A DNA stretch of 31,301 bases from a virus, in the IMG/VR virus record IMGVR_UViG_3300024518_000519, positions 1 to 31,301 of that record; one strand, given 5' to 3'. The notes under the pieces were generated by a model. That model saw nothing but the letters and a program-made list of their open reading frames with translations. It had not been told where the DNA came from and ran no database searches. Each line of letters begins with the position of its first letter. Position 1 is the stretch's first letter. Below, piece by piece: positions 20,603-31,301 of the stretch. The position numbers and the translations under genes were made by a program.

Positions 20603-20927
20603 ATACATAGCCGAGCAGTTTCCTTTGCCTTTTGGTGAGGTTTACCCAAGCTCTCCCGGTTACAAGAACAAGGACAAAGATGGGCCAAGCCGAAAAGCTG
20701 CCATTTCAATTAAACCCCATGCTCTCAACTTGCGAGAGAAGTGCTTTCGCGTCATCAGCCAGATACCAATGACGGCAGATGAAACGGCTGAAACAATTGG
20801 CAAATCTATTTTGTCAGTTCGTCCAAGGATTGCCGAGCTTGCAAAGCTTGGAAAAATTGAGGACTCAGGTGGGCGCAGGGCAAATGAGAGCGGAAAGGTT
20901 GCAACAGTATGGAGGAAAAAAATATGA
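20595..20927 (+). CDS. Winged-helix DNA-binding protein
   Basis: The protein has 110 residues. ATG 20595 lies 8 bases inside the resolvase end and is preferred over an upstream in-frame ATG. Residues about 46-108 (LREKCFRVISQIPMTADETAETIGKSILSVRPRIAELAKLGKIEDSG...ATVWRKK) have the helix-turn-helix plus wing pattern, with SVRPRIAELAKLG as the recognition helix. The first 45 residues are loosely structured. Such proteins accompany phage replication genes, but whether it acts as regulator or helper is unknown. Confidence 0.65.
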   Translation: MSKYIAEQFPLPFGEVYPSSPGYKNKDKDGPSRKAAISIKPHALNLREKCFRVISQIPMTADETAETIGKSILSVRPRIAELAKLGKIEDSGGRRANESGKVATVWRKKI

Positions 20928-21262
20928 CAAAACTAAAATTAGACGCACAAGGATTGCTCTCTGATGCCAGCATGGTGCTTTTAACCCTGTCCGAATTAGG
21001 GTGCTTCATTCGATTGAAGTGCCACTACTGGAGGGAGGGAGTGCTTCCTGCTGACACGTTAAGCCTTGCCAAGCTGGCGGGTTGTTCGGTTGGACAGTTT
21101 CAAGATGTTTGGCCAAAGGTCGGCCAGCACTTTGAGAAAACAGAGGTGGGGACTCTCTCCTGCCGTGAACTGGATGAGGCCCGACAGAAGGCAGAGGCAA
21201 AAAGCGACAGGATGCGAAAGGTCGCCAATGCAAGGTGGAAAAAGAAGGAGGTTGTGGGATGA
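20924..21262 (+). CDS. DUF1376-like short paralogue
   Basis: The protein has 112 residues. ATG 20924 overlaps the winged-helix stop, with GGAGGA 7 bases upstream, so it is chosen over the ATG at 20909. The core DASMVLLTLSELGCFIRLKCHYWREGVLPADTLSLAKLAG aligns with the N-terminal domain of the next gene (RVALLTLEEEGAYIRLLCYCWKNGELPNDMEQLAKLIG), so the two are tandem paralogues. A basic end follows (DRMRKVANARWKKKE). DUF1376 proteins occur in phage replication modules. It may be a regulator or initiation factor. Confidence 0.7.
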   Translation: MTKLKLDAQGLLSDASMVLLTLSELGCFIRLKCHYWREGVLPADTLSLAKLAGCSVGQFQDVWPKVGQHFEKTEVGTLSCRELDEARQKAEAKSDRMRKVANARWKKKEVVG

Positions 21263-22107
21263 AAAAGATACCGGCATTTCAGTTCTACCCCGCTGATTGG
21301 CTGTCCAGCCAGAGGGTTGCCCTTTTGACCTTGGAGGAGGAGGGGGCTTACATCCGGCTTCTTTGCTACTGCTGGAAGAACGGAGAATTGCCCAATGACA
21401 TGGAGCAACTTGCCAAACTGATAGGCAAGGGTGGTTCGGTTTTGCTTGCAACCAAAGTGGCAACCATGTTCCAAGCGGACGGTACACGGTTGTTGCACGA
21501 TAGGTTGGATGCCTTGAGGGGGGAGCGAGAGCAATGGCTGGAGAAGTCAAGGAGGGGAGGACTCGCCTCTGCGGCAAAAAGGGCAAAACAAAGGGAAACA
21601 GGCAAAACTGATTCCAAGGGTGGTTGCGATTTGGTTGAGGATTGCTTGCAACCAAAAGGCAACACTTCATCTTCATCTTCATCTTCTAAGTTCACTCACA
21701 CTACGGAAGTCCCTTCCAAGGATGAAGTGGTGGCTTATGCTGACATGATCGGATTGATTGCATGGCGAGCAGAGGATTGGTGGTTGGGCATGGAGACCAA
21801 GGGGTGGATGATTGGAACAACAGAGGTTCGGAACTGGCAAGCTGGGGTTGCTCAGGCTAAAAAGTATTGGGAAGCTGATGGCAGACCAATGCAAAGGCCG
21901 GGAAGAAACGGAAACCCAGCAGCAGGAGGATCGCCAATGCCCATATGGAAAAAGATACAAGTGATTACTGAGGAACTGGCAACCCACCCCGGCAACAAGG
22001 AGTCAACTTACTATCGTCAGGAGAAACCAGAGGCACGGGCAGCGTTCCGGGCTTTGAAGGTAAAGCTTCGGGAGTTGAAAGAAGAAGAAAGAAGCGCAGC
22101 ATTATGA
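21259..22107 (+). CDS. DUF1376 protein, replication-initiator-like
   Basis: The protein has 282 residues. The ATG overlaps the previous stop. Residues 5-95 (FQFYPADWLSSQRVALLTLEEEGAYIRLLCYCW...) match DUF1376. Then a basic helix (SRRGGLASAAKRAKQR) and a serine run (SSSSSSS, about residues 136-143, encoded by a tcttca tandem repeat near 21667-21687) act as a hinge. The C-terminal half, with AWRAEDWWLGMETKGWMI and NWQAGVAQAKKYWE, resembles replication-protein tails that follow DUF1376. It probably helps start phage replication. Arginine codons are mixed, with 8 of about 20 AGG. Confidence 0.78.
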   Translation: MKKIPAFQFYPADWLSSQRVALLTLEEEGAYIRLLCYCWKNGELPNDMEQLAKLIGKGGSVLLATKVATMFQADGTRLLHDRLDALRGEREQWLEKSRRGGLASAAKRAKQRETGKTDSKGGCDLVEDCLQPKGNTSSSSSSSKFTHTTEVPSKDEVVAYADMIGLIAWRAEDWWLGMETKGWMIGTTEVRNWQAGVAQAKKYWEADGRPMQRPGRNGNPAAGGSPMPIWKKIQVITEELATHPGNKESTYYRQEKPEARAAFRALKVKLRELKEEERSAAL

Positions 22108-22766
22108 CAAAAGCTTATTATCAAGATGATGCAGTTACAATCTATCATGGCGATTGCCGTGAGGTTTTGCCAACGATCAGCGAAGTTGACCTAGTGCTAA
22201 CTGACCCGCCGTATGGAATTGATGGTGGCACAGGGGGAACATCGAAAGGCCGAGGGAAGGGGAATTATGGCGCATCTTTCAATGATACCCGTGAGTTCGT
22301 TGAGGATTGCGTTATTTCTTCCTTATTCAATGTGGCAAAGTGGCGCACATTAGTCGTAACGCCGGGGTTCACAAACATAAACCTCTACCCTCAAGCCGAT
22401 TCCTTTGGAGTGTTCTACTCGCCAGCGGCGTGTGGAATGCAACGGTTTGGGTTTGCTGATTCCAGCCCAATACTTTACTATGGGTGGCATTATCTGCAAG
22501 GAAAGAAACCAGAGGCGTGTTCTAAACAGCTCACGGAGTCGCCAGAGAAGAATGGTCACCCGTGCGCAAAGCCAATCAAGGCATGGACTTGGCTTCTAGG
22601 GAAGACAAGCCAACCCCACAACACCATACTTGACCCATTTATGGGGTCGAGCACAACGCTACGAGCTGCCAAAGACCTACAACGGAAAGCTATTGGTATT
22701 GAATTAAATGAAGAATATTGCGAAATAGCGGCATTACGCATGGCACAAGAGGTGTTGCCTCTATGA
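22104..22766 (+). CDS. DNA methyltransferase (N6-adenine or N4-cytosine type)
   Basis: The protein has 220 residues. DPPYG (residues 34-38) is the catalytic motif of amino-methyltransferases, and DPFMGSSTTLRAA (177-190) is the SAM-binding motif, with CAKPIKAWTWLL before it and GIELNEEYC after it. Motif order with DPPY first fits the beta group. The target domain between them (about residues 60-150) is short. It may modify phage DNA against host restriction, or feed the ParB/glycosyltransferase genes. No AGG arginine codon is present (0 of 8), unlike the upstream gene, suggesting separate acquisition. A terminator follows. Confidence 0.85.
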   Translation: MTKAYYQDDAVTIYHGDCREVLPTISEVDLVLTDPPYGIDGGTGGTSKGRGKGNYGASFNDTREFVEDCVISSLFNVAKWRTLVVTPGFTNINLYPQADSFGVFYSPAACGMQRFGFADSSPILYYGWHYLQGKKPEACSKQLTESPEKNGHPCAKPIKAWTWLLGKTSQPHNTILDPFMGSSTTLRAAKDLQRKAIGIELNEEYCEIAALRMAQEVLPL

Positions 22767-24238: not shown

Positions 24239-25948
24239 ATGACACTTGAGATATTAGTCAAGCCAGCAAAGTTCCGGGACGCAATTAAGCGACTTGGTAA
24301 AAAGAAACCCGTTGCTAGGAAACTGAGCAGCAAACAATGGGCAGCTATGCCCACACAGATCAGGGAGAGGGCTTACTTCACGGCCAACGTGGAGAGCATG
24401 AAGTTTCTAAACCGCTCCAAAAAGATGATAAAAGACTATCTTGCAGGGGCAAGGGAGATGGTCACCACCCCTGATGGGCGCAGGGTTTCTGCCCTAAAAA
24501 AGACAGGCAGGGCTGACTTCGTTTATGAGATGCAGAAGCTGGCGAAGCAGACAGGCATGGGGAACATACTCCCGCCGGGGGAGGATATGAGCAGGGACAT
24601 GATTGCCCGCACCAAGGATATTGCCAGCGAGACGAGGCTTAACCTGATATTCGATACCCAAACCCAGCAAGCTCAGTCATACGGCTATTACAAGCAAGGG
24701 CAAGACCCCGTCCTCCTTGACGCTTACCCCGCCCAAAGGTTCATCAGGGCAGAACAAAGGAAGGTTCCGCGCCCACTTCATAAGCAAAACCGAAACGAGG
24801 TAAGGCGTAAGGATGACATGGAGTTTTGGCTGAAGATGAATGACCAGAGCATCGGAGGCTTTGGGGTTCCTTTTGGCCCTTGGGGGTTTAACAGCGGCAT
24901 GGATGTTGAGGATGTCAGGAGGGACAAGGCCATACAAATGGGGCTGATTGAGAAGAATGAGCAAGTGCTGCCACCAGAGGATACTTTCAACAAAGGGCTG
25001 AAAGCCTCGGCAGACGTGGAGCCTGAGTTCCTCAAGAAGTTTTTGGATAAGATGGGCATGGATGCCTACACAAACGGGGAGTTTGTTGAGATCATTGAGA
25101 AGATCAGCAATGCACCTGCCCCTGCTCCAGCTAAAAAGGTGGTTGTTCCGCAGGTTGAGCAGATGGTTATTAAGGGATTGCCTGAGCCGGAGAAGTTTCA
25201 GCTGCCAAAGCCACAGCAATCGCTTAAAGACCAGCAAATAATAAACCAAAACTATGCGATAAGAAAATACCTTACAGAAAAAAGGCTAGATGACACGGGA
25301 AGAAAGGAAATTAACCTCCAAAAGGTAAAAGCTAAAATAGACCTAGCCACCAAGAAGTGGGCAAAAAACTCAAACTCTTTTATTAGGGTGAAAAAGGGCG
25401 TGCTCAGGAAAATATTGGAAGACGGCAGGTTCAAGTCGCAACACGAAACCCAAACTAGCGGTGGGGCGTTAAAGCCAATCTATCGCCGGAAGGTGGAGGG
25501 CGAAATGTTTTCATACCCTGAAAACCTTAAACCAGAAAAAAGGCCAATCTATGGTTATGCAACTCAAAACAAGTTTGGGTTTTCTCAAGACAATGCGGGG
25601 AACATTAACAAGCACCCCGCCGTTGATATGTATGGGAAAATAAGAGTAAAACTGAAGGACAGAACAAGAAAAAGAACCACCGTAACTTTTGGGGATTCAT
25701 TGGGGGCGTCATCTTATATACCGACTCCGCTAGAGGACCCAACCCACGAATCGCAGCCCATGTACTCAGTATATTCAGTAGCCAAGGCGATGACTGACCA
25801 CCCCGGTGTGGGGTATGTAGAGCTACAGGTGCATGATGGGGTGAAATTGGATGACATAAGCAGGGTTTATTTTCCCGGTGGAATGGAGCCCTCAGAAGAA
25901 ACAATAAAACTACTCAAAGAGAAAGGAATAAGATGGACAGTAGACTAG
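24239..25948 (+). CDS. Minor head protein-like N-terminus fused to ADP-ribosyltransferase-like C-terminus (MuF-toxin-like)
   Basis: The protein has 569 residues. Residues about 115-240 (RTKDIASETRLNLIFDTQTQQAQSY..., DPVLLDAYPAQRFIRAE..., FGVPFGPWGFNSGMDVEDV) resemble minor capsid / head-morphogenesis proteins of phages. A Pro/Lys-rich hinge follows (292-330). The C-terminal domain (about 385-550) has GVLRKILEDGRFKS, RPIYGYA, YGKIRVKLKDRTRKRTTVTFGDSLG, PTPLEDP and YVELQVHDGVKLDDISRVYFP. These are blocks of a phage/toxin family related to ADP-ribosyltransferases, whose 'E.QIHG' block is near the catalytic site. MuF polymorphic toxins have this design, a capsid domain carrying a toxin. It is far from the portal gene, which is unusual. 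Toxin activity is not proven. Confidence 0.6.
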   Translation: MTLEILVKPAKFRDAIKRLGKKKPVARKLSSKQWAAMPTQIRERAYFTANVESMKFLNRSKKMIKDYLAGAREMVTTPDGRRVSALKKTGRADFVYEMQKLAKQTGMGNILPPGEDMSRDMIARTKDIASETRLNLIFDTQTQQAQSYGYYKQGQDPVLLDAYPAQRFIRAEQRKVPRPLHKQNRNEVRRKDDMEFWLKMNDQSIGGFGVPFGPWGFNSGMDVEDVRRDKAIQMGLIEKNEQVLPPEDTFNKGLKASADVEPEFLKKFLDKMGMDAYTNGEFVEIIEKISNAPAPAPAKKVVVPQVEQMVIKGLPEPEKFQLPKPQQSLKDQQIINQNYAIRKYLTEKRLDDTGRKEINLQKVKAKIDLATKKWAKNSNSFIRVKKGVLRKILEDGRFKSQHETQTSGGALKPIYRRKVEGEMFSYPENLKPEKRPIYGYATQNKFGFSQDNAGNINKHPAVDMYGKIRVKLKDRTRKRTTVTFGDSLGASSYIPTPLEDPTHESQPMYSVYSVAKAMTDHPGVGYVELQVHDGVKLDDISRVYFPGGMEPSEETIKLLKEKGIRWTVD

Positions 25949-26161: not shown

Positions 26162-26806
26162 ATGAGTGAAATTGAAATACATTGTAAGCATTCCAAGCTT
26201 GAGGACATTGCGAGCTTGGTTCCGCACCCTCAAAACCCAAACAAACATCCAGATAAGCAGATTGCTTTGCTGGCCAAGATCATTCGCCATTCAGGTTGGC
26301 GCAGCCCAATAGTGGTGAGCAAACGCTCCGGGTTCATTGTGTCAGGGCATGGCAGATTAGAGGCTGCAAAGCTTCTCAACGTCCAAACCGTCCCGATTGA
26401 TGTGCAGGATTTCAAAACTGAGGCAGAGGAGTTTGCCCACTTGGTAGCCGATAACCGCATAGCTGAGTTGTCAGGGCTTAGTGACGATAAGCTTACCGAG
26501 CTATTGTCAGGGTTGAGTGAGACTGACTTGGACATGGAACTAACCGGCTTTGATGGGGATGAACTTGCCAAGCTTTTAGAGATGAACCACGAAGAGGTGG
26601 AAGGGAGCGAGAAGTTCAGCGAAGCCATTGCGGAGTCAAACAATTACGTGGTGCTTGTGTTCAAGAACGACCTAGATTGGCTTTCCGCGCAATCACACTT
26701 CGACCTTGAGACGGTTACTGCCAAGCGCCAGAACGGCAAGCCGTGGTCAAAAGGCATCGGCAGGGTGGTCGATGGAGCCAGTTACCTCACAAAAATAACG
26801 AAATGA
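26162..26806 (+). CDS. ParB/Srx-fold phage protein
   Basis: The protein has 214 residues. Residues about 10-90 (LEDIASLVPHPQNPNKHPDKQIALLAKIIRHSGWRSPIVVSKRSGFIVSGHGRLEAAKLLNVQTVPI) match the ParB N-terminal domain, with GHGRLEAAK (62-70) as the nucleotide/phosphate-binding box. The domain HLVADNRIAELSGLSDDKLTELL is typical of phage ParB proteins linked to DNA methylases. The C-terminus (about 160-214, NNYVVLVFKNDLDWLSAQSHFDLETVTAK...GIGRVVDGASYL) is a separate conserved module. Its stop overlaps the glycosyltransferase ATG. It probably acts with that enzyme on DNA rather than in partitioning. Confidence 0.82.
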   Translation: MSEIEIHCKHSKLEDIASLVPHPQNPNKHPDKQIALLAKIIRHSGWRSPIVVSKRSGFIVSGHGRLEAAKLLNVQTVPIDVQDFKTEAEEFAHLVADNRIAELSGLSDDKLTELLSGLSETDLDMELTGFDGDELAKLLEMNHEEVEGSEKFSEAIAESNNYVVLVFKNDLDWLSAQSHFDLETVTAKRQNGKPWSKGIGRVVDGASYLTKITK

Positions 26807-27567
26807 GCAAGCCCGTTATTATCTCACCATCCTACAAGAGGGCAAATGGGCTGAAGACCCACAAGCTCATTCCTAGCGTGATTTATTGCGTTGGTGAATC
26901 AGAAAAGGAGGAGTATGAGGGGCAAGGGGTAAACGTGGTGGCTTGTCCTGACAAGGTTAATGGGAATATTGCCAGAGCAAGGAACTGGATTCTTGATAAC
27001 TATGCGAACCAGAAGCTTCTCATTGTTGACGATGACATTGCTAAGATTGGAAGGCACGAACCAGATGGAGACACTTACAAAGTTAATTGGCTCACACCTG
27101 ATGATGTGGGCGACTTAATCCAACAGGGCTTTGACCTATGCAAAGGATTTGGGGCTAGGCTTTGGGGGTTGAACCCTGCAAGTGACAAAGGTGGATACAG
27201 GGAATACACGCCTTTTGGCTGCAATTCTTACGTTAGTGGCTCTTTCTCCGGGTTTATCGACCCCGTGCTGCGTTATGATGAAAACCTACCACTAAAGGAG
27301 GATTATGACATGACAATCCAGCAATGTAACGTCTATAGGCGAGTGCTGCGCCTCAATATGTTTCATATGGTGAAGAACGACCACGGGAACAAAGGAGGTT
27401 GTGCCAACTACCGAACCCTTGAGCGCGAAATGGAGCAGTATGAACTTCTGCTAGCCAAGTGGGGCAGCAAGATTGTCAGGAGAGATAACGGAAGCAAGTC
27501 TGATGGGAAGAAAAAGGCAAGCTATGACATCAACCCGATCATAAATGTGCCTATTGGGGGAGTGTAA
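26803..27567 (+). CDS. TET-associated-type glycosyltransferase (DNA base modification candidate)
   Basis: The protein has 254 residues. ATG 26803 overlaps the ParB stop, and the in-frame upstream ATG lies within that gene. MSKPVIISPSYKRANGLKTHKLIP starts a GT-A-like fold. LLIVDDDIAKIG (Asp76-78) is the metal-binding triad, and EDYDMTIQQCN (166-176) a probable catalytic block; His188 (NMFHMV) and His194 (DHGNKGG) follow. The ISPS, NGNIARARNWI, DDDI, GFGARLWGLNP, SGSFSGFID and EDYDM pattern matches the TET-associated glycosyltransferases known in phages, which sugar-modify hydroxymethylated bases. No TET dioxygenase is in view. Protein glycosylation is the alternative. Confidence 0.7.
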   Translation: MSKPVIISPSYKRANGLKTHKLIPSVIYCVGESEKEEYEGQGVNVVACPDKVNGNIARARNWILDNYANQKLLIVDDDIAKIGRHEPDGDTYKVNWLTPDDVGDLIQQGFDLCKGFGARLWGLNPASDKGGYREYTPFGCNSYVSGSFSGFIDPVLRYDENLPLKEDYDMTIQQCNVYRRVLRLNMFHMVKNDHGNKGGCANYRTLEREMEQYELLLAKWGSKIVRRDNGSKSDGKKKASYDINPIINVPIGGV

Positions 27568-28099: not shown

Positions 28100-28546
28100 A
28101 TGGCTGGAGCAACGACAGGAACCCGCTTAACTTCACCAACACCCACCAGTAATGGCAAGCATCCCGGTGGGAGGCCCAAGATCGTTTTTGACCTAGACTT
28201 GGTTGAACGGCTTGGCGGTCTCAATGCTACCCTTGCAGAAATGGGGACTCTCCTTGGTTGTTCACATGATGTGATTCAACGCCAAATGAAGGGCGAGGAC
28301 AGTCAGTTTCGCGTTGCCTTTGAAAAGGGAAAGGCCAAGTTGCAAACTTCTCTCAAGCGTAAGCTGGTTCAGCAAGCCCTTGATAACAACAACGTGGTCA
28401 GTCTTATCTTCGCTTTGAAGAACGTCTGCGGGTTTACAGACAGGGCCGAGGTTAACGTGGAGCATTCGGGACAGGTGACTACCGAGAAGCAACTCGTTGT
28501 CCAATGGAGAGAGATGCTTGGTGCTCCTAATCCCGAAAACAACTGA
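28100..28546 (+). CDS. Terminase small subunit candidate
   Basis: The protein has 148 residues. After a Thr/Pro-rich start, GGRPKIVFDLDLVERLGGLNATLAEMGTLLGCSHDVIQRQM is a helix-turn-helix (residues about 22-65), followed by a helical core (FRVAFEKGKAKLQTSLKRKLVQQALDNNNVVSLIFALKNVCGFTDRAE). This layout is that of phage small terminase subunits, which bind pac/cos DNA. It is directly followed by the large subunit. No ribosome-binding site is visible before ATG 28100, so the start could be slightly downstream or unusual. Confidence 0.65.
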   Translation: MAGATTGTRLTSPTPTSNGKHPGGRPKIVFDLDLVERLGGLNATLAEMGTLLGCSHDVIQRQMKGEDSQFRVAFEKGKAKLQTSLKRKLVQQALDNNNVVSLIFALKNVCGFTDRAEVNVEHSGQVTTEKQLVVQWREMLGAPNPENN

Positions 28547-29866
28547 ATGACTAAAGCGGAACGCGCAAAAGCATTGTTCAAGTTGATGCTGCCCTACCAG
28601 CAAAGGTGGGTGGCGGACTCTTCGCGTTTCAAGATATGGCTCAAGTCCCGGCAAATAGGGGGTTCACTTGGTTCAGCCTTTGAGGCTGTTGCCAGTTGCG
28701 TGGATAAGCCCAACACCGATTGGGTGGTGCTGTCAGCAGGCCAAAGGCAGTCCGAGGAATGGATGCTAAAGGGCAACAGGGTTGCAAGGGTTGTGTCTGA
28801 TGCTCTGGATTTACCCAAGCCTGACTGTAGGACGAGTGAGGTGAGGTTCCCAAACGGATCAAGAATCCTTGCCCTCCCCGCCAACCCGGACACCGTGCGT
28901 GGTTATTCAGCCAACTTGGTGCTGGATGAGTTTGCATTCCACGAAAGGCCCGACCGTATCTACGAGGCAATTTACCCAGCAATCTCCAACCCCTTGAGGG
29001 GTGAGCTAAAGCTCCGCATCATCAGCACCCCAGCAGGACGTAACAGCAAGTTCTTTGAGATTTGGAACAAGTCGGAGGAGCTTAACTTCGTAAGGCATAA
29101 GACAACCATCCATTCAGCAATCGAAGAAGGGTTGCCAATGGATGTTGAGGCTTTGAAGATAGGGCTGGATGACCCCGAAGCTTGGGAGCAGGAATACGAA
29201 TGCGAGTTTGTGGATGCCACCAATGTCCTGCTGCCTTACACCCTAATTGATGAATGCGTAAGTGATGAGGCAACCCTTGATTGTGAGGAGTCAAATGGGG
29301 GGGCTACTCGCTTTGTGGGCATAGACATTGGGCGTAAGCATGACCTAACTGTTTGCTGGACGCTTGAGAAGGTTGGCGATGTGATGTGGACAAGGGAGGT
29401 TTTGGTTCTCCGAAACACCCCATACCATTTGCAGGAGGAACTCCTTTCTGACCGTATCAACAAGGCGACCCATGCTGCCATTGATGCAACAGGCATTGGC
29501 AATGCGATAAGCGAGTCCTTGGCCAAGCGGTTTGCCTTTAAGCTGGAGGAATGCACGTTCACGCAAGGGCTGAAGGCAAAGATATTCCCCGGTTTACGCA
29601 GGGCATTCCAAGAGCGAGGCTTGAGGGTGCCAAGGGACAAAGCTATTCGGGAGGATTTGCATTCGGTCAATGAGTTGACCACGCCGGGAGGAAACAAACA
29701 ATACAGAGCGGTAAGGCGTTCAGATGGTCACGCCGACAGATGCACAGCGTTGGCTTTGGCCAACTATGCCGCTTTGCTAAACCAAGGGTCTGGGACAATT
29801 GGTGACACCGACAACATCATGCTTGGCAGAGCTAGGCTCGCAGGATTAAGGCCCACATTGGTATGA
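28547..29866 (+). CDS. terL: Terminase large subunit
   Basis: The protein has 439 residues. The ATPase part shows KSRQIGGSLG (about 33-42, Walker A-like), ANLVLDEFAF (Walker B, Asp127/Glu128) and RIISTPAG (coupling motif, 158-164). The RNase H-like nuclease part shows GIDIGRKHD (Asp260, Asp266), AAIDATGIGN (Asp313) and RSDGHADRCTALALA (Asp397). Both halves of the DNA-packaging motor and headful/cos cleavage enzyme are therefore intact. Start is adjacent to the small-subunit stop. The stop overlaps the portal ATG. Confidence 0.93.
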   Translation: MTKAERAKALFKLMLPYQQRWVADSSRFKIWLKSRQIGGSLGSAFEAVASCVDKPNTDWVVLSAGQRQSEEWMLKGNRVARVVSDALDLPKPDCRTSEVRFPNGSRILALPANPDTVRGYSANLVLDEFAFHERPDRIYEAIYPAISNPLRGELKLRIISTPAGRNSKFFEIWNKSEELNFVRHKTTIHSAIEEGLPMDVEALKIGLDDPEAWEQEYECEFVDATNVLLPYTLIDECVSDEATLDCEESNGGATRFVGIDIGRKHDLTVCWTLEKVGDVMWTREVLVLRNTPYHLQEELLSDRINKATHAAIDATGIGNAISESLAKRFAFKLEECTFTQGLKAKIFPGLRRAFQERGLRVPRDKAIREDLHSVNELTTPGGNKQYRAVRRSDGHADRCTALALANYAALLNQGSGTIGDTDNIMLGRARLAGLRPTLV

Positions 29867-31301
29867 TTGCAGAATTAAGTAACCGCTTCGGGAAACTGTT
29901 TAGTGCCAAAAAAGGGCCGAACGGGTCATCTATCGGTAAACGGGTTATTGCGCCCAATAACCGTGACCGGATGGACAGCAATTCGCTGGGGAGCAAACAG
30001 TCCCCGGCTAATGTAATTGCGATACTTCGTGCTGCCCTTGGCGGGGATATTCGGCAGCAATACCAAGTGTATGAGTTGATGGAGGACTCATGGGCTAGGC
30101 TTGCAAAGAACCTTCACGAACTGAAAAGCGCAGCGGCAGGGGCAACCTACACCGTAATGCCTTTTACCGTGAGGGGTGAGCGCCCAACTGATTCAGCGCA
30201 GGAAAAGGCTGACTTCGTTCAATATGCAATTGACGAGTGGGTGGGCGATCCAGTTGCAGGGACAAATGGTTTCCGCAATGCCATTTATGATTTGTGCGAC
30301 GGGGTGGGCAAAGGGTTCAGCGTGCAAGAAATACTTTGGGAGGTTAAGAAGGGTGGCATCTGCCCTAAATCAACTTACTTCTGCCATCCCCGCTATTATT
30401 CTTTCCCCTATGACAAGACCGACTTGATGCTCTCACCCCAAGGTGATGGCGTTTATGAGGAGTTCCCTGACAACAAGTTTATTGTTGGAATCTACAAGAA
30501 CCGTTCGGGCAACTCGATGGGCTATGGCTTGTTAAGGCAGTTGGCTTACTGGTGGAGCGGTCAGAACTTCTGCCGTGATTGGTTGCTTAACTTTGCCCAA
30601 GTGTTCGGTCAGCCATTGAGGTGGGCGACCTATGACCCCGGTGCTGCTGCCAACATTAAGAACGACATTGCTGATATGCTGGAGAACATGGGTTCTGCTG
30701 CATGGGGAGCGTTCCCGGCAGGGACACAGGTGGAGTTCAAAGAGGCAGGGAAGTCAGGGCAGGATAACCCTCAAAGCTATTTCATCCAAGTTGCTGATAA
30801 GTTGTGCGACATCACGATCCTTGGCCAAACCCTTACAACTGATGTGGGGGATTCAGGAAGCAGGGCTTTAGGCGAGGTGCATGAGGATGTGCTTCGCTCT
30901 AGGTTGCAGGACGTATGCGATTGGGCTGCGGATGTGATGAATGAACAACTCGTTACTGCTTTATGCGAGTTGAATTACGGGGACAAGGATGAAATGCCAA
31001 AGCTTGTCCCTGACCTTGCTGGGCCGGGAGACCCCGTGCTTGAGGCTCAAAGGGATCAGATACTTTTAACAAGCGGAGTGGAGATGCCCCGCGAATGGTT
31101 CTACGACCGTCACGATGTGCCAATGCCCCAATCCGGGGAGGACATCATTTCGCCACCAGAGCCAGCAGCGATGCAACCCCCTATGTTCGCCAAGGAGGGA
31201 GTGGTGGAAGCCGCACAGAGGGCAGAGCCGGGGCCAAGGGACAAGCTGCTCAACAGCGTAATGGAAGACGTTACGGGAGTGAGTGAGGCATGGCTTGCTC
31301 C
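29863..31301 (+). CDS. Portal protein, Mu gp29 / DUF935 type (3' truncated)
   Basis: 479 codons are open to the right edge, with ATG 29863 overlapping the terminase stop (ATGA). Recognisable blocks include QQYQVYELMEDSWARLAK, FRNAIYDLCDGVGKGFSVQEILW, QLAYWWSGQNFCRDWLLNFAQVFGQPLRWA and ITILGQTLTTDVGDSGSRALGEVHEDVL, the last being diagnostic of Mu gp29-like portals. It would form the 12-mer ring at the capsid vertex, contacting the terminase and the gp36-like connector. The Pro-rich stretch SPPEPAAMQPPMF near the edge lies in the C-terminal region. The protein is usually about 500 aa, so little is missing. Confidence 0.9.
   Translation, partial: MIAELSNRFGKLFSAKKGPNGSSIGKRVIAPNNRDRMDSNSLGSKQSPANVIAILRAALGGDIRQQYQVYELMEDSWARLAKNLHELKSAAAGATYTVMPFTVRGERPTDSAQEKADFVQYAIDEWVGDPVAGTNGFRNAIYDLCDGVGKGFSVQEILWEVKKGGICPKSTYFCHPRYYSFPYDKTDLMLSPQGDGVYEEFPDNKFIVGIYKNRSGNSMGYGLLRQLAYWWSGQNFCRDWLLNFAQVFGQPLRWATYDPGAAANIKNDIADMLENMGSAAWGAFPAGTQVEFKEAGKSGQDNPQSYFIQVADKLCDITILGQTLTTDVGDSGSRALGEVHEDVLRSRLQDVCDWAADVMNEQLVTALCELNYGDKDEMPKLVPDLAGPGDPVLEAQRDQILLTSGVEMPREWFYDRHDVPMPQSGEDIISPPEPAAMQPPMFAKEGVVEAAQRAEPGPRDKLLNSVMEDVTGVSEAWLA

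Follow-up and report, generated by a model that had tools for sequence, protein, structure and literature searches.

Sugars on phage DNA stop many restriction and CRISPR systems. To our knowledge, every described route to such DNA starts with the hydroxylation of a pyrimidine, in most cases at the level of the nucleotide pool; thymidylate-synthase-family enzymes are the usual hydroxymethylases, and C5-cytosine methyltransferases would feed a TET route. The TET-associated glycosyltransferases (TAGTs) are said to have been named by Iyer et al. in 2013.

Ggt of phage T6 (PF20691) acts on DNA (PMC13216743, PMC13390438). It resembles the TAGT of the window, i.e., the whole stretch of 31,301 bases analysed here, in family, fold, a DDD motif, an equivalent of residue D167 and a GG pair, but the two enzymes are 26% identical, and in T6 a dCMP hydroxymethylase is located beside ggt, an alpha-glucosyltransferase acts first and there is no ParB partner. 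Brevibacterium phage LuckyBarnes possesses tandem TAGTs, as do 45 of the 157 loci with a ParB-TAGT pair described below. Unlike in the window, its two TAGTs are situated next to a thymidylate synthase-type enzyme and a 5-hmdU DNA kinase, and ParB is absent. ParB-N6/N4 methyltransferase fusions of temperate phages (PHROG 498, Bce ParB-methylase) share with the window the ParB domain, the linker and the position before the terminase genes, but carry a SAM methyltransferase in one chain, whereas the window encodes a ParB tail and a separate glycosyltransferase. ParB domains also recur next to CmoX, a cytosine hypermodification enzyme (PMC12783734). As proposed for the window, a base hypermodification enzyme recurrently has a ParBc-domain neighbour, but CmoX adds a carboxymethyl group that is later amidated, and no glycosyltransferase occurs in its cassette (PMC12783734).

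Solitary phage TAGTs, lacking an accompanying alpha- or beta-glucosyltransferase, were reported for 288 of 753 genomes (PMC13216743). The phages with a ParB-TAGT pair belong to this class, which is noted but left unexplained in that study; its full text mentions neither ParB nor the tail nor the pre-terminase position. In the literature searched, which did not cover the original TAGT description, no paper joining ParB with TAGT was found. Already known are TAGTs, solitary TAGTs, fusions of ParB with methyltransferases, and the proximity of ParB to a cytosine carboxymethyltransferase.

The ParB and TAGT genes of the window

The window corresponds to a single whole IMG/VR virus record (IMGVR_UViG_3300024518_000519). 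The four-base overlap between a ParB-like gene and a TAGT gene, reported in the first-pass annotation, is confirmed as an ATGA stop/start motif (Table 1), which likely results in translational coupling of both genes. A gap of -4 occurs in 29 out of 81 non-redundant loci, and some overlap in most of them. The terminase genes are located directly downstream of the pair, and this order is kept in most relatives. Comparison of the window with close relatives gave dN/dS values of 0.03-0.05 for TAGT and 0.04-0.15 for ParB, and both genes are therefore under strong purifying selection.

Table 1. Features of the ParB-TAGT locus, with positions in the window.
Feature	Position	Strand	Basis or remark
ParB-like ORF, 214 aa	26162-26806	+	
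ParB/Srx-type N-terminal domain and helical linker, residues 1-150	26162-26611	+	Pfam ParB_N, PHROG 498/620
ParB C-terminal tail KFSEAIAESNNYVVLVFKNDLDWLSAQSHFDLETVTAKRQNGKPWSKGIGRVVDGASYLTKITK, 62 residues	26612-26803 (stop codon excluded)	+	candidate TAGT-partner domain
ATGA stop/start overlap of ParB and TAGT, exactly four bases	26803-26806	+	sequence
TAGT glycosyltransferase (TAGT1), GT-A fold, 254 aa counted from ATG	26803-27567	+	PF20691, PHROG 842, AF2
D76-D77-D78, DxD-type nucleotide-sugar/metal motif	27028-27036	+	invariant in 77 TAGT1 proteins
KEDYD, residues 165-169	27295-27309	+	D167 invariant, candidate catalytic base
G198-G199	27394-27399	+	invariant over all TAGT family members aligned
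Terminase genes, small and large (both within 28100-29866)	28100-28546; 28547-29866	+	PHROG 309, Pfam Terminase_6N/6C

The ParB chain was matched by PHROG 620 (E 1e-36), by PHROG 498 at positions 30-183 (E 1.2e-40), and by Pfam ParB_N at residues 16-89 (E 2.5e-5) with 24.7 bits, slightly below the cut-off of 26.3. It ends in the tail, and a C-terminal N6/N4 methyltransferase domain of the PHROG 498 type had no match in the chain. With regard to partition-type ParB traits, ParB_N is present without a KorB-type helix-turn-helix domain and without an adjacent ParA ATPase gene. The superfamily arginine is absent in 9 of the 79 ParBs scored, which makes it doubtful that the ParB domains have a catalytic role in common.

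The TAGT assignment made in the first-pass annotation is borne out by profiles of PF20691 (E 9e-9, 36.0 bits, above the cut-off of 27.5) and of PHROG 842, "beta-glucosyl-HMC-alpha-glucosyltransferase" (E 1.8e-16), as well as by the fold. The AlphaFold2 model is a GT-A fold with a pLDDT of 89.8 and a pTM of 0.88, and its best Foldseek matches among viral models are TAGTs (TM 0.76-0.81), including a Klebsiella phage beta-glucosyl-HMC-alpha-glucosyltransferase (TM 0.76). The DDD motif, D167, and G198-G199 are common to the TAGTs of T6, LuckyBarnes, S-CBWM1, and Paschalis. Judged by motifs and model, the enzyme appears to have an intact glycosyltransferase core and looks competent. Assignment to a protein- or cell-wall-glycosylating family, which according to the first-pass annotation would have refuted its reading of DNA hypermodification, did not result from the family search, but the PDB neighbours AvpGT, TarP, and GalNAc-T2 are less specific. 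Foldseek against the PDB returned AvpGT first (9jn3, E 2.8e-6), followed by the teichoic-acid enzyme TarP, whereas VIA-align placed GalNAc-T2 first (Z 13.9, 9% identity) with many GT-A enzymes tied. Since these nearest folds are general GT-A enzymes, the fold indicates sugar transfer and does not name the acceptor.

The window record lacks approximately 4 kb between the portal and the capsid genes, and the genome is incomplete: the portal gene runs off the end of the window, whose start picks up again past the capsid genes (29863-31301 and 1-1737). In the relative L003, the absent stretch contains a head protease, a major head protein, and three small ORFs. Elsewhere in the window, the primosomal/DUF1376-like genes at 20909-21262 and 21235-22107 are neighbours with a slight overlap and may have arisen by duplication. 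A 569-aa protein with weak matches to PHROG 220 (minor head protein/DNA pilot) and DUF3626 is encoded at 24239-25948, before ParB and not in the head module. Genes of the DUF2589 type are situated directly upstream of ParB in close relatives (L002:8255-9302, with two in tandem, and L009:3756-4391) and are absent there in the window.

Conservation of the pair and of the ParB tail

With the TAGT profile, 405 relatives were obtained from IMG/VR, of which the best 80 were analysed, and 10 from bacterial genome assemblies, among them Roseibacillus, Bacteroides, Treponema, Phascolarctobacterium, Chitinophagaceae, Victivallaceae, and Phycisphaerae. A further relative occurs in Streptococcus phage Javan291. 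In nearly all of them a ParB gene is located directly upstream of TAGT, and tail and TAGT occur together in 157 out of 165 loci. Regarding the remaining eight, L013 and L038 start inside the tail, L014, L044, and L045 are truncated by a contig edge, and L100 (Microbacterium phage Paschalis) possesses ParB with a divergent tail. In case of L047 and L052, a short unrelated ORF precedes TAGT at the contig edge, and these two could be real exceptions. No plasmid record with a relative was found, and TAGT2 as query matched no phage record.

The reciprocal search of IMG/VR by the tail alone yielded 280 relatives; all of the 80 loci kept carry TAGT downstream, directly adjacent (within 60 bases) in 75 cases. 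Javan291, which also has the closest TAGT, was the only one of 50,697 phage records to match the tail consensus. Furthermore, seven long records were compared (the window, five IMG/VR records, and Javan291). A close relationship over the full length exists only between the window and G002, and ParB and TAGT are the only proteins common to all seven (phmmer, E 1e-4). Among phage genes, the pair is self-sufficient. The proposal of the first-pass annotation that both genes form a functional unit is strongly supported by these observations, and, due to the approximately 157 loci that keep the pair and the low dN/dS, the pairing is not a matter of chance.

Within the pair, the degree of conservation is uneven. 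Mean pairwise identity over 81 non-redundant loci is 32% for the ParB N-domain, 65% for the tail, and 49% for TAGT; judged by these alignments, the N-terminal half of ParB is the variable, swappable part. The distance rank correlation (Spearman) with TAGT is 0.44 for the tail versus 0.17 for the N-domain, with a difference of 0.27 and a 95% range of subsamples of 0.14-0.38. Compared to L018, the window shows 26% identity in the N-domain, 75% in the tail, and 67% in TAGT, whereas L007 gives the opposite pattern with 95%, 83%, and 53%, respectively. Considering these identities and the correlations, the ParB domain has been exchanged and the tail tends to follow TAGT. From the sequences we infer that the tail may recruit or activate TAGT, presumably by physical contact; a fused model of a natural in-frame ParB-TAG-TAGT pair, based on a shallow alignment, reached a pTM of 0.56 with no confident relative orientation.

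The slot immediately before the terminase genes, where the pair is situated, is also used by other ParB proteins. The ParB-N6/N4 methyltransferase fusions of pOW20-A and ctGfd272 are located at or near it. Together with the neighbours of CmoX (PMC12783734), these fusions support the earlier statement that phage ParB domains are often found beside DNA-modifying enzymes. In other phages, the slot is occupied by a ParB-DUF4417 fusion (Javan386) or by ParB overlapping an ABC-type ATPase gene (Javan420), and ParB may therefore have further partner enzymes besides TAGT. The coordinates of the latter two variants are L185:3492-4592 and L184:3501-4675.

The operon itself also varies. In the loci with tandem TAGTs, the second TAGT lies between ParB and TAGT1. 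A SAM methyltransferase occurs in the operon of L012, L125, L129, and L160, and a radical SAM-SPASM enzyme is inserted between ParB tail and TAGT at L083:5130-6002 and L013:79-1104. The proximity of radical SAM-SPASM enzymes to DNA-modification genes is unusual. In Paschalis, where TAGT was found by tblastn and has no Pfam match, ParB and TAGT show the same 4-base overlap (49562-49565). A further annotated glycosyltransferase lies before them, and after them comes a gene of the UDP-glucose dehydrogenase family.

The acceptor and alternative explanations

We consider it probable, with some reservation, that ParB and TAGT constitute a DNA glycosylation system of two proteins that is complete in itself, with the tail delivering TAGT to DNA. 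DNA would be the acceptor due to the membership of TAGT in the family of T6 Ggt, the presence of ParB, the slot shared with DNA methyltransferases, and the lack of any other phage protein target common to the records. Against this reading, enzymes of the GT-A fold also act on proteins and wall polymers, and several of that kind come out near the top of the PDB comparison.

A thymidylate-synthase-family hydroxymethylase (PF00303) was found in none of approximately 40 ParB-TAGT records (30 records with Javan291 among them, nine more, and Paschalis; the genomes of Javan291 and Paschalis are complete). The same search matched in T6 and LuckyBarnes, where the TAGTs lack a neighbouring ParB. The window record, for which the first-pass annotation noted no pyrimidine hydroxymethylase, is among the records without a match. 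The suggestion of that annotation that the modification may depend on genes outside the window became unlikely, given the PF00303 result in about 40 records, two of them complete, and the capsid genes found in the corresponding stretch of L003. Likewise, no C5-cytosine methyltransferase was detected in 14 ParB-TAGT records. Tet_JBP (PF12851) had no match in 30 records, but no positive control was matched either, and this result is not a proof of absence. An N6_N4-type methyltransferase encoded at 22104-22766 was considered as acceptor maker and rejected: L002 lacks it, yet keeps ParB-TAGT with a 95% identical TAGT. With neither a hydroxymethylase nor a C5-methyltransferase nor a TET match, the chemistry of the favoured two-protein DNA system has no precedent in hand, which counts against it.

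The acceptor may be an unmodified base. Tentatively, ParB-TAGT could glycosylate an ordinary base directly, e.g., at the exocyclic amine that is the presumed target of the ParB-N6/N4 methyltransferases in the same slot, and would then require no hydroxymethyl handle. If true, this would be a new route of two genes, possibly with a new linkage. Rather unlikely in our view is that the system needs a hydroxymethyl handle (or a different hydroxyl group) supplied by an unrecognised or a host enzyme, and that TAGT1 works just as T6 Ggt or the classical DNA glucosyltransferases do. As far as is known, characterised phage DNA glycosyltransferases all use hydroxymethyl or hydroxy pyrimidines or an attached sugar (PMC13216743, PMC13390438); in addition, no function is assigned to many of the small phage genes here, and the Tet_JBP search is uncontrolled. 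Such a handle is at odds with the absence of a further gene common to the seven long records and with the PF00303 and C5-methyltransferase results.

It is improbable that TAGT glycosylates protein, either the tail of ParB itself or a protein of the host (e.g., RNA polymerase), with ParB as substrate or adaptor. The tail is indeed conserved beyond the need of a disordered linker and is accompanied by TAGT in each tail-found locus kept, radical SAM-SPASM enzymes, which are typical peptide modifiers, occur in the operon at few loci, and the polypeptide-modifying GalNAc-T2 is the top match by Z. This likeness is, however, that of the general GT-A fold only, TAGT relatives cluster with DNA hypermodification genes, and DNA methyltransferases occupy the same slot. 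Moreover, since no third protein is common to the seven records, phage-encoded protein acceptors besides ParB are excluded at phmmer sensitivity. That ParB nicks DNA and TAGT caps the nucleoside 3'-OH ends or modifies nucleotides is very unlikely: AvpGT, the best PDB match by Foldseek, is a nucleoside 3'-O-glucosyltransferase using UDP-glucose (PMC11959488), nicking has been reported for the ParB-methylase, and a review covers ParB domains that show nicking/NTPase activity (PMC5512222), but AvpGT shares 16-17% identity with TAGT, is nearly equalled by TarP and is poor on 2'-deoxyadenosine (PMC11959488), and nine ParBs lack the superfamily arginine.

Proposed mechanism and implications

According to the favoured DNA glycosylation system, the ParB/Srx domain would bind or load onto DNA, the conserved tail would bring in or switch on TAGT, and TAGT would move a sugar from a host nucleotide sugar onto phage DNA. 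This would take place late in infection, shortly before or during packaging, and the sugar would mask the phage genome from restriction; we infer both the late timing and the anti-restriction role. Optional operon enzymes, i.e., the second TAGT, the SAM methyltransferase, and the radical SAM-SPASM enzyme, might decorate the product further. In this system, ParB-TAGT would be the glycosyl counterpart of the ParB-methyltransferase modules found in the same pre-terminase position.

The pair moves as one unit among many unrelated phages, unaccompanied by the gene that usually readies DNA for sugars, which suggests an undescribed, simpler way of coating DNA with sugar. Because approximately 50 cultured Microbacterium phages have the ParB-TAGT pair, the system is directly testable. 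A cassette of two genes that spreads across many bacterial phyla in phages unrelated to each other, and that operates without a hydroxylating enzyme, would be a simpler route to glycosylated DNA, and it would give a function to many solitary TAGTs and to ParB domains located beside DNA-modifying enzymes.
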